From positions 62,001 to 126,000 of the forward strand of contig NZ_JFBL01000006.1 in NCBI RefSeq assembly GCF_000597725.1: a DNA stretch of 64,000 nucleotides. Reading direction: 5' to 3'. Position 1 is the first letter of the stretch. The number at the start of each line of letters is the position of its first letter. Source of the stretch: Sulfurospirillum arcachonense DSM 9755. Its GTDB lineage: Bacteria > Campylobacterota > Campylobacteria > Campylobacterales > Sulfurospirillaceae. Both the position numbers and the translations under genes were made by a program. Shown here in pieces: positions 3,094 to 61,158 of this stretch. Under the pieces are notes generated by a model. It was not told the origin of the DNA, made no database searches, and was given only the letters and a program-made list of their open reading frames with translations.

Positions 3094-3124
3094 TTACATG
3101 TAAAGATATTTTCTTTACATGTAA
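3094..3124. terminator. Bidirectional terminator from two TTACATGTAA palindromes
   Basis: Left arm TTACATGTAAAGA (3094-3106) pairs perfectly with right arm TCTTTACATGTAA (3112-3124): a 13-bp stem and 5-base loop. It fills the gap between the convergent msbA and LysE genes and is T-rich on one side. Each arm contains one copy of the recurrent word TTACATGTAA. Confidence 0.8.
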
Positions 3125-19173: not shown

Positions 19174-19228
19174 ATATTTAAAAACAAATTTGTTACAATA
19201 ATAGAAATTTCAATATAAGGGAATCATT

Positions 19229-20062
19229 ATAGAATTTAAAATTTTAGTAGATAATAACACTATTATTGATCGTTATTACATAGGTGAGCCTGCTGTTTCA
19301 TATCTAATTTGTGATGAAGATACTAAGGTTTTATTTGATGTTGGATATTCAGATGTATTTATAAAAAATGCATTAAAAATGAATGAATCACTTATGGATA
19401 TTAATTACATTGTTATATCACACGGACACAATGATCATACTGGAGGGTTCATTCCTCTTACGAAATTTTATACTGAAGCAAAAACAGAAAATATAAATTA
19501 TATTCGTCCAACTATTATTGCCCATCCTGATGCTTTTTCCTATAAAGAGTATAATGGTGATGAAATTGGATCTACTTTAGATTCTAAAAAAATCAATCGG
19601 TATTTTAATACTAAATTAACTGATACTCCATTATGGTTAACAAAAAATTTAGTCTTTTTAGGTGAGATAGAAAGAATCAATGATTTTGAAAATATTGACC
19701 CTGTTGGTCAATGTGAAAAATCAGAGAAAATGATAGATGATTATCTTAAAGATGACTCTGCTCTCGTATATAAGTCTTCAAAAGGTTTAGTTATAATCAC
19801 TGGATGTTCTCATGCGGGAATTTGTAATATTATAGAGTATGCAAAAAAAGTTTGTAAGGATGATAGGATCTTAGATGTCATTGGTGGTTTTCATCTTATC
19901 AATCCAAGTGAGCTCCAATCTAAAGGTACTCTTCATTATTTTACTCAAAACCCTATAAAAAACATTCATCCATGTCATTGTACAAGTTTAGAATATAAAA
20001 TCAAATTATCAAAATTTTCAAATATCATAGATATAGGTGTTGGTTTATCACTTAGTTATTAA
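19229..20062 (+). CDS. MBL-fold metallo-hydrolase with apparent ATA start
   Basis: A 277-residue metallo-beta-lactamase-fold hydrolase with the metal motif H65-G-H67-N-D69-H70, GCSHAGICN, and late histidines (GGFHL; HPCHCTS). The family is a broad group with often unknown substrates; the pattern resembles the 7,8-dihydropterin synthase-like/RomA subgroup. The first ATG (19379) would remove the first beta strands. In-frame sequence upstream encodes a natural N-terminus (EFKILVDNNTIID, GEPAVSYLI, KVLFDVGYSD) but holds no ATG, GTG or TTG back to a stop at 19202. AAGGGA at 19217-19222 puts ATA at 19229 six bases downstream. Either an unusual start or a decayed ATG. Confidence 0.8.
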   Translation: MEFKILVDNNTIIDRYYIGEPAVSYLICDEDTKVLFDVGYSDVFIKNALKMNESLMDINYIVISHGHNDHTGGFIPLTKFYTEAKTENINYIRPTIIAHPDAFSYKEYNGDEIGSTLDSKKINRYFNTKLTDTPLWLTKNLVFLGEIERINDFENIDPVGQCEKSEKMIDDYLKDDSALVYKSSKGLVIITGCSHAGICNIIEYAKKVCKDDRILDVIGGFHLINPSELQSKGTLHYFTQNPIKNIHPCHCTSLEYKIKLSKFSNIIDIGVGLSLSY

Positions 20063-58311: not shown

Positions 58312-58972
58312 AGATGAATTAATACCAGCAGAATATCTTAAAAGTATTTTAGAAACTAGAGGTTGGGAAGTAGTTGCTATAGTAGATAACTGTAAAGATA
58401 CAATAAAAAGTGTAAAAAAATATAAACCAAATTTGATTTTGATGGATATAATGATAAATGGTTCCAAAAGTGGATGTGAGACAGCAATAGAAATTAGAAA
58501 GACTAGTAATTGTGCCATTATATTTACCACCTCTTATGCGAATGAGGAGATGATTAGTTATGCTATGGAAATACAGGCTGAAGGCTATATGATTAAGCCC
58601 TATAACGAAAAAGAAATTATAGCTACAATATCCCTACTAAGTGCTAAACAAAATGGAAATAACAATCATTTTAAAATTACAAGATTAATTGGAGGGTTTT
58701 CTTATATACATGAGTCCAATTTATTATATAAAGATGCACAAATAGTAAAACTCGGTCCAAAAGCTATTAAGCTTATCCAAATTTTATGCTCCCATAGAGA
58801 TAAATTTGTCTCTTATAAAAAACTCTACGAATATATATGGGAAGGAGAAATCAACTTAAAAAAACTTCAAATGGTTGTATATCGTATTAGAGAAGTTTGT
58901 GAAGTTGACTTTTTAGAAAATATCAATGGAGTAGGTTATCAGATTAAGATAGACCACTCCTTTCATGATTAA
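58289..58972 (+). CDS. OmpR-family response regulator
   Basis: A 227-residue regulator. The receiver (1-120) has acidic pair ED in ILIVEDE, phospho-acceptor D53 (LILMDIM) and lysine in YMIKPY. The C-terminal 100 residues form a winged helix (LGPKAIKLIQIL, LKKLQMVVYRIREV, GVGYQIK). It has AAAGGAA before the ATG and overlaps the kinase. OmpR-type factors usually bind direct repeats about 11 bp apart, as found in the promoter ahead of the kinase and ahead of the adhesin gene. The stop overlaps the convergent ftsK stop (TTAA). Confidence 0.87.
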   Translation: MYKILIVEDELIPAEYLKSILETRGWEVVAIVDNCKDTIKSVKKYKPNLILMDIMINGSKSGCETAIEIRKTSNCAIIFTTSYANEEMISYAMEIQAEGYMIKPYNEKEIIATISLLSAKQNGNNNHFKITRLIGGFSYIHESNLLYKDAQIVKLGPKAIKLIQILCSHRDKFVSYKKLYEYIWEGEINLKKLQMVVYRIREVCEVDFLENINGVGYQIKIDHSFHD

Positions 58973-61125
58973 ATAATTTCTCTTTGACCTTTAGAGTTTT
59001 GAGCAGATAATATACCCATGGTTTCTAACTGTTCTACTATACGTGAAGCCCTATTATAACCTATTTGCAACCTTCTTTGAATGTAACTAATGGAACATTT
59101 TTTCTCATTTTGAACAATAGCTTTTGCTTCTTCAAAAAGCTCATCTATATCTCCACTCATAGTACTATCACTTGAAGTTGATACATCAGAATCACTCTGT
59201 TTTAAAAAACTTTCATCATAAGAGACTGGTCTTTGTTTTTTAAGATATTCTACTATCTCTTCTATTTCATCTTCACTTGCAAAAGGAGCATGAAGTCTAA
59301 TAAGCCCTGAACTTGAAGGTGGAGTAAAAAGCATATCACCTCGTCCTAAAAGAGAATCTGCTCCCGTCGCATCAAGAATAACTTTACTATCTATTTTAGA
59401 ACCAACTTTATAACTTATGCGACTTGGAAGATTGGCTTTAATAAGCCCTGTTACAACATCTACTGAAGGACGTTGCGTAGCAACTATAAGATGTATACCA
59501 CTCGCTCTTGCCATCTGAGCAAGACGTGCAATGTAAAATTCAACTTCTTTTCCACTATTCATCATCAAATCAGCTAACTCGTCTATAATAACAACAATAT
59601 AAGGAAAAGGATCAAGCCCAAGTTTTTTTGCTTTTTCATTATAATTTTCAATATTTTTTGTTTTTGATTGACTCATAATTTGATAACGTCTTTCCATCTC
59701 TGAAACCATATTTGCTAAAGCAATTATCGCTTGTTTTGGTTTTGTAATCACTGGAGTTAATAGATGAGGAATATCATTGTATATAGAAAACTCTAGCATC
59801 TTAGGATCAATCATAAGAAGTTTCAAAGTATCTGGAGAGTTTCTATAAAGTAGTGAAAGTAACATAGAGTTAATACCTACACTTTTTCCACTTCCTGTAG
59901 TTCCCGCAATTAAAAGATGTGGCAATTTTTTTAAATCTGTTATAAATGGATTTCCTACAATATCTTTACCAAGTGCAATAGTAAGAGGAGATGATGCTTT
60001 GATAAAAATATCACTCTCTAAAACTTCTTTTAAATATATAGTTTCAATTTTAGCATTTGGAACTTCGATTCCAACAACATCCTTCCCCGGAACTGGAGCT
60101 TGAATACGAATTGTTTTTGCTTTTAAAGCCATCGCTAAATCATCTTGTAAGGTCAATATTTTAGAAACTTTTACATGTGGTGCTGGTTTAAACTCAAATG
60201 TTGTAACAACAGGACCAGAGTATGTTCTTACAACATCACCATCAATTTTAAATCTTTTTAATTTTTCTAATAAATCAGATATTTTTCTATCTATTTCACT
60301 TTCATTTATATTCTTACTTTTTTTAGGAGGTGATGTCAGCATTTTTAGTGGTGGCAATCTATAATCTTTTGGTGCAGCGTGTTCACCCTTTTCAATCTCA
60401 TCTAAAAGTTTTTTATTCTCTTCAACTTCACTAATTATTTCAACGTGATGATGTTCTTCTTTATTTTCTATTTTTACTTCTACATCTTCACTTATAACAT
60501 TTTCTTTTTTTACTAATTTAACACTATCAGCATAATCTTCTGGATTGATATCATCTTGTGTTATCTCTTTCTCAACTATCTCTTTTTCTTCTTCATAACT
60601 ATTTACATACTTGTTGTCATCTTCAGTTTCTTCTTTAACTTCATCTTCAAAATCACTTTTATTCCCTTTTTTAGGTAATTTATGATTTACAAATGAAAGC
60701 ATATCATCTGCTGTTGTATTTAAAATAATACTAAAAGAAAGACTCGCAATAGCTATAATAAAAAGCCATACACCTAATATTCCTATGAAAGATTGCAATA
60801 TTTCAACTATTGAAAAACCTAAATAGCCTTGTAATGGAGACTTTACAACAACAGCTTGAAACATTAAAAAAGAAAACATCAAAAGAGTCATTGATAAAAT
60901 AATCTCTATTTTTCTTGCATTAAAATTACTATCTCTATAAAAAAACAGTGCAGGAAGTATCAATAAAAAAGGATAAATATAAGAAATATAACCAAACCAA
61001 GTTTGATTCCAATGACCTAAAATAGAACCAAAGCTTCCTACAAAACTAGCTTCAGGAAGAAGTGTCGCTACTCCAAAAAAAAGTAAAAAAGCAATAGATA
61101 TAATAAATAATGTCTCTTTTAAAAT
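58969..61125 (-). CDS. ftsK: FtsK DNA translocase with apparent ATT start
   Basis: A 718-residue septal DNA pump. N-terminal membrane helices (about 1-110), an acidic linker (about 120-240), RecA-like motor with Walker A GTTGSGKSVGIN (about 410) and Walker B IDELADLMM, then a C-terminal winged gamma domain (ISYIQRRLQIGYNRASRIVEQL). The first conventional start (TTG 60963) would remove the first membrane helices. Upstream in-frame sequence (LKETLFIISIAFLLFFGVATL and GYISYIYPFL) is typical FtsK, but has no ATG, GTG or TTG back to a TGA. AAAGGA at 61137-61132 is six bases before ATT at 61125, which I take as the start. Confidence 0.88.
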   Translation of the reverse strand: MLKETLFIISIAFLLFFGVATLLPEASFVGSFGSILGHWNQTWFGYISYIYPFLLILPALFFYRDSNFNARKIEIILSMTLLMFSFLMFQAVVVKSPLQGYLGFSIVEILQSFIGILGVWLFIIAIASLSFSIILNTTADDMLSFVNHKLPKKGNKSDFEDEVKEETEDDNKYVNSYEEEKEIVEKEITQDDINPEDYADSVKLVKKENVISEDVEVKIENKEEHHHVEIISEVEENKKLLDEIEKGEHAAPKDYRLPPLKMLTSPPKKSKNINESEIDRKISDLLEKLKRFKIDGDVVRTYSGPVVTTFEFKPAPHVKVSKILTLQDDLAMALKAKTIRIQAPVPGKDVVGIEVPNAKIETIYLKEVLESDIFIKASSPLTIALGKDIVGNPFITDLKKLPHLLIAGTTGSGKSVGINSMLLSLLYRNSPDTLKLLMIDPKMLEFSIYNDIPHLLTPVITKPKQAIIALANMVSEMERRYQIMSQSKTKNIENYNEKAKKLGLDPFPYIVVIIDELADLMMNSGKEVEFYIARLAQMARASGIHLIVATQRPSVDVVTGLIKANLPSRISYKVGSKIDSKVILDATGADSLLGRGDMLFTPPSSSGLIRLHAPFASEDEIEEIVEYLKKQRPVSYDESFLKQSDSDVSTSSDSTMSGDIDELFEEAKAIVQNEKKCSISYIQRRLQIGYNRASRIVEQLETMGILSAQNSKGQREII

Positions 61126-61131
61126 AGTAAA

Positions 61132-61158
61132 TCCTTTACATGTAATGGCGCGATTATA
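61132..61158 (-). promoter_or_regulatory. ftsK promoter -10 and ribosome-binding site containing TTACATGTAA
   Basis: TATAAT reads on the minus strand at 61158-61153, and AAAGGA at 61137-61132. The TTACATGTAA word at 61136-61145 lies in the short leader and supplies the AAA of the ribosome-binding site. The promoter fits in the 41 bases between flgL and ftsK. Confidence 0.6.

Follow-up and report, generated by a model that had tools for sequence, protein, structure and literature searches.

Proposed AUA initiation of an MBL-fold metallo-hydrolase gene in Sulfurospirillum arcachonense and AUU, AUC or AUA start codons of ftsK across its order

The infC and pcnB genes of Escherichia coli start with AUU, a codon from which initiation is low, and there the AUU start is conserved and tied to control by IF3. 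Use of AUA and AUU start codons has also been demonstrated in Staphylococcus aureus, where infC, ccpN and citZ start with AUA, on the evidence of Ribo-Ret and, in the case of ccpN and citZ, of reporters in which AUA yielded about 10-30% of the AUG value; extended Shine-Dalgarno (SD) motifs have been reported for infC and ccpN, and the citZ AUA is limited to the NCTC 8325 lineage (PMC13009471). In Listeria monocytogenes, variants of the SigB antagonist gene rsbW with ATG changed to ATA or ATT arose under acid selection, the ATA variant showing increased SigB activity, i.e., decreased RsbW output, and fixed non-canonical starts were found in 6 of 2265 conserved Listeria genes (PMC13068326).

The window analysed in this study is a stretch of 64,000 nucleotides (G000:C6:62001-126000) from a genome of 2.66 Mb in 42 contigs that is 99.99% complete. 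The following features of its MBL gene are considered here:

19217-19222, + strand: Shine-Dalgarno sequence AAGGGA; counted from the second G of AAGG, the distance is 8 nt to ATA 19229 and 5 nt to ATT 19226.
19226-19228, + strand: ATT, an alternative, less likely AUH (ATT, ATC or ATA) start one codon 5', at a rare SD spacing and a non-homologous position.
19229-19231, + strand: ATA, the proposed start codon, replaced by ATG, GTG or TTG at the same codon in 35 of 35 homologues.
19229-20062, + strand: MBL-fold metallo-hydrolase gene of 277 codons plus stop, identified by Pfam PF00753, solved relatives and an AlphaFold model.
19379-19381, + strand: ATG encoding Met51, the first in frame, taken as an internal methionine; a start here removes strands, a helix and invariant residues and has no SD.

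Read base by base, the frame runs from TAG (19202) through the eight codons AAA TTT CAA TAT AAG GGA ATC ATT to ATA (19229), and continues with GAA TTT AAA ATT TTA GTA GAT AAT AAC. No ATG, GTG or TTG was encountered in a codon-by-codon reading between the stop at 19202 and ATG 19379, in agreement with the preliminary description, according to which the frame has no canonical start upstream of 19379. Two further statements of that description, namely that AAGGGA lies six bases 5' of ATA and that about 50 codons of natural MBL N-terminus precede ATG 19379, were likewise borne out, the gap being ATCATT and positions 19229-19378 aligning without gaps to homologues. Like the S. aureus citZ, ccpN and infC starts, the putative MBL start is thus an AUA in the homologous position behind an SD, and like those of E. 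coli infC and pcnB it is an AUH codon. Unlike the extended motifs of S. aureus infC and ccpN, its SD is a short AAGG, a weaker match than the AAAGGA of ftsK (see below), and the start is predicted from sequence.

The AAGG stands at a working distance of 8 nt from ATA 19229, a common spacing in this genome: among 638 canonical starts with an SD, spacings of 7, 8, 6 and 5 nt were counted 188, 111, 99 and 14 times, respectively. The leader is nearly unstructured (MFE about -2 kcal/mol). These spacings also bear on initiation one codon 5', at ATT 19226, which would yield M-I-E-F-K... ATT 19226 is an in-frame AUH codon, and both ftsK and a proV-like gene of this genome use ATT, but its 5-nt spacing is that of 14 rather than 111 of the 638 starts and the homologous start falls one codon 3', making this alternative very improbable.

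The homologue set comprised 35 sequences from many phyla, 32 of them loci from other taxa and three from the same family. In all 35, the column of ATA 19229 holds a canonical codon (30 ATG, 4 GTG, 1 TTG), and in a 23-sequence alignment the first 70 columns are gap-free and M1 is nearly invariant, indicating that, as judged from the alignment, ATA 19229 is the homologous start position. ATA would most simply be derived from ATG by a G to A change at 19231. As none of the 35 homologues has an AUH codon at this position, the conservation among orthologues seen for infC and ccpN is lacking, and the MBL gene represents at most a lineage-specific case like that of citZ; just as the citZ codon is found in one strain lineage, the MBL change seems confined to one species.

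Relatives with ATG at 19229 had been named in the preliminary description as evidence against an ATA start. Such relatives do exist, at 79% identity or less only, and they point to ATA being derived while giving no proof that it is unused. The gene is absent from the five other genomes of the genus, full-length copies in the family were limited to three further genomes (67-70% identity), and none above 70% identity was seen in the sample of the order that was searched; the closest homologue found anywhere (79% identity) belongs to a Psychromonas MAG. Its nearest relatives come from Psychromonas, Photobacterium and Desulforhopalus, and the tree intermixes Gammaproteobacteria, a Desulforhopalus and the family of the window genome, as expected for a horizontally moved gene. 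To judge from this distribution, the MBL gene is accessory. The single G to A difference from the family consensus could also reflect a sequencing or assembly error at 19231, the true codon being ATG. Nevertheless, the assembly is near complete, with the completeness and contig number given above, the rest of the frame is intact, and the codon can be explained without such an error, given that several other genes here carry AUH starts also seen in other species; an error is therefore considered improbable.

The product scored 44 bits against PF00753 (cut-off 22.7), in line with an MBL-fold metallo-hydrolase, and the residues of its HxHxDH metal motif (H65, H67, D69 and H70) are invariant in 23 sequences. 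The AlphaFold model has a mean pLDDT of 91.6, and the closest solved structures are 3h3e (TM1679) and 2p4z, which belong to the same family by sequence and carry the active-site motif; their entry names give no function, and ordinary start codons are assumed for them. Identity as a class B3 beta-lactamase was rejected (26 bits versus a curated cut-off of 240).

The fold and the constraint on the gene both bear on ATG 19379, the first canonical codon in the frame. A start at Met51 would drop strands 2-7, 24-29 and 32-36 as well as helix 43-50 of the model, and would cost 11 invariant residues, including D8-N9-N10-T11 and D37/G39; moreover, no SD is present in the sequence ahead of 19379. In the comparison with the nearest homologue (L003), dN/dS was about 0.07 (0.08/1.15) for codons 2-50 and about 0.14 (0.14/0.97) for codons 51-277, so the segment that would be left untranslated is constrained as much as the remainder. 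An internal start at 19379 was consequently rejected, and its probability is regarded as negligible.

A pseudogene created by an inactivating lesion was also discarded, since the frame is intact to the C-terminus, the invariant residues are kept and only the start codon departs. In simulations of neutral mutation of the 828-bp frame, a median of 4-6 mutations was enough to reach the first stop or indel, indicating that the MBL frame has not been long adrift. The gene has been constrained until recently, or still is. A recent loss of the start, leaving a gene that is effectively silenced and in early decay, with AUA initiation too weak to matter, would be consistent with the canonical start of every homologue, with the accessory nature of the gene, which the five other members of the genus and most of the family lack, and with the greater number of private amino-acid changes on the window branch (22, compared with 6 in L003). 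By contrast, the frame has neither stop nor frameshift, all active-site residues and the SD are kept, dN/dS remains low, and of 57 columns that do not vary among the other 21 sequences only one is altered (V to I). This scenario is therefore held to be rather unlikely, although pairwise dN/dS gives no date for the start loss and the constraint data do not distinguish a functional AUA from a loss that is very young.

The homologous position, the well-spaced SD and the intact, constrained frame with its predicted fold make AUA initiation at 19229 the best reading. We consider it probable that a lineage-specific ATG-to-ATA change occurred and that full-length protein is made by weak AUA initiation. 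The preliminary proposal of ATA as the start is thus supported as regards position, SD and integrity of the gene, whereas ATA proves to be derived and its use is inferred, with a yield that would be a fraction of that of AUG. According to this model, a G to A change at 19231 would have turned the start codon into ATA in this lineage, the AAGG at normal spacing would set the ribosome on the unstructured leader, and initiator tRNA would read AUA as formyl-methionine through its first- and second-position match, giving full-length M-EFKILVDNNT... at reduced level. The AUH starts in conserved genes of the lineage (ftsK and the proV-like gene) support the notion that ATA serves in the MBL gene, without proving it. 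Against AUA initiation stand the lack of ATA in every homologue, the nearest of which is at 79% identity, the weaker SD match, the MBL branch of the window, longer than that of its nearest neighbour though similar to that of another (0.14 versus 0.13 for L004), and the lack of genome-wide enrichment of AUH codons behind SDs. As in the Listeria rsbW variants, a single base of the start codon is changed, the frame is kept and output is lowered, the lowering being proposed for the MBL gene; rsbW, however, is a regulator gene with a known phenotype that was under laboratory selection, whereas the MBL gene is a natural accessory hydrolase gene.

A second gene in the window lacks a canonical start:

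58969-61125, - strand: ftsK (DNA translocase), starting with ATT at 61125-61123; Pfam FtsK_SpoIIIE, FtsK_alpha and FtsK_gamma.
61132-61137, - strand: ftsK Shine-Dalgarno sequence AAAGGA, six bases before ATT, read from the sequence.

The start context is AAAGGA-TTTACT-ATT, followed by LKETLFIISIAF. Taking the start as the codon ahead of the invariant (L/V)-K-E (loci L143-L172), the start of ftsK is AUH in every one of the 30 family genomes (17 ATC, 11 ATT and 2 ATA) and never canonical. Positions L1, K2 and E3 after the start codon are invariant in a 12-row alignment, an SD core of the AAGG/AGGA type lies within 16 bases upstream in all 30 genomes, and in 14 of them the next canonical codon is found beyond codon 20. 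An order-wide profile search provided ftsK starts for 40 further genomes (L203-L242), 28 of them with AUH, most often at a distance of 7 nt from the SD, and the remaining 12, which all belong to family f17, with TTG at the following codon. Altogether, 58 of the 70 genomes sampled in the order, from ten families, start ftsK with ATT, ATC or ATA and 12 with TTG, and none with ATG. In a few genomes (e.g., L205, L206 and L148) an upstream in-frame ATG or TTG overlaps or abuts the SD and is unlikely to act as the start.

The AUH start of ftsK is thus conserved among orthologues, and the view, expressed in the preliminary description, that AUA and AUU starts are known but rare needs to be qualified in this order, as ftsK has one in most families sampled. 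No report of it was found by title or abstract in the open-licence literature searched, and this conserved start seems to be undescribed. It is a stronger and more general lead than the MBL case. It appears fairly likely that, across the order, selection keeps AUU, AUC or AUA in ftsK as an ancient weak start capping FtsK synthesis, perhaps tuned by IF3, and that individual lineages employ this device in other genes too (proV-like gene, C2:95057 gene and MBL gene), with switching between AUG and AUH in both directions.

The genome-wide base rate was estimated by scanning 1.61 Mb (about 61% of the genome) for ORFs that look coding ahead of their first canonical codon, and the long start-less N-terminus of the MBL gene exceeds what chance would give. 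Only 10 of 1295 coding-scoring ORFs, some of them on the wrong strand or in the wrong frame, have at least 50 codons before the first canonical start; those that are also coding-like there are mostly wrong-strand or wrong-frame, the convincing ones being the MBL gene, ftsK and C2:95057-95461. A second scan, for AUH codons preceded by an SD, added a proV-like ATPase gene and an ABC substrate-binding protein gene:

G000:C3:160724-161554, - strand: proV-like ATPase gene (loci L243-L255).
G000:C2:95057-95461, - strand: small conserved gene (loci L173-L202), AAAGGA-TAGAAA-ATT.
G000:C3:77857-78837, + strand: gene for an ABC substrate-binding protein (PF04392), ATA behind AAGGA and then signal-like KKAILIFIIFLMACF (L256).

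The proV-like gene starts with ATT in the window genome and G042, ATA in G041 and ATC in G015, in each case preceded by AAAGGA or AAGGAG; the remaining nine genomes have ATG. The C2 gene, which has no Pfam match and a looser N-terminal alignment, has ATT or ATA, as judged by its SD, in the window genome, G002, G041 and G042 and ATG in others, so that the family seems to alternate between ATT/ATA and ATG at this start. Together, these two patterns indicate that AUG and AUH have been exchanged more than once in the family. For the ABC substrate-binding protein, no relative was detected at E 1e-40 among the 43 further genomes of the family.

Before the first canonical start of 1234 non-overlapping coding ORFs, AUH codons were not enriched behind SDs (16 of 922, compared with 118 of 7741 overall, p = 0.33). 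As AUH codons stand behind a strong SD no oftener than other codons, general use of AUH starts by the organism was rejected, and AUH initiation would be confined to a few genes. Three other candidates were dismissed. Unlike the AUU-started infC of E. coli, infC of this organism has an in-frame TTG as a plausible start; a permease-like ORF (C4:177984-179333) has a TTG with an SD; and the apparent lack of a start in a formate dehydrogenase-like ORF (C1:121876-123690, - strand) is explained by a UGA fitting selenocysteine. The in-frame TGA of the latter lies in the context CARV-TGA-HAPTV, as for selenocysteine.

A separate observation concerns the palindrome TACATGTA (often TTTACATGTAAA), the most over-represented 8-mer counted; it occurs 706 times in 1.61 Mb, which exceeds the zero-order expectation by a factor of 10.7. 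Copies are often paired about 20-30 bp apart in intergenic DNA, e.g., at 3096/3117, 16687/16707, 44847/44867 and 61138/61169 of the window, and the palindrome may act as a dispersed signal in the manner of HIP1 or uptake sequences. The copy at 61131-61145 (- strand) overlaps the ftsK SD and contains an ATG directly followed by TAA (start-stop), and upstream of ftsK in several relatives a TATAAT-like box is preceded by a second copy.

Because gene finders as a rule recognise no start codons other than ATG, GTG and TTG, they truncate or miss genes with AUH starts; the first canonical ORF of the MBL gene lacks 50 N-terminal residues, and that of ftsK about 54. The MBL gene offers a single natural case of ATG turned into ATA with the remainder of the gene intact, AUA and AUU starts being already known elsewhere. 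The wider point is ftsK: none of the 70 genomes sampled starts this conserved division gene with ATG, and most have AUH. In a Ribo-RET study of Campylobacter jejuni, ATG, TTG and GTG starts were analysed, including by metagene analysis, and the text names neither ftsK nor AUU or AUA starts (PMC11955535). The AUH start of ftsK would make non-canonical initiation testable in published Ribo-RET data from a member of the phylum.
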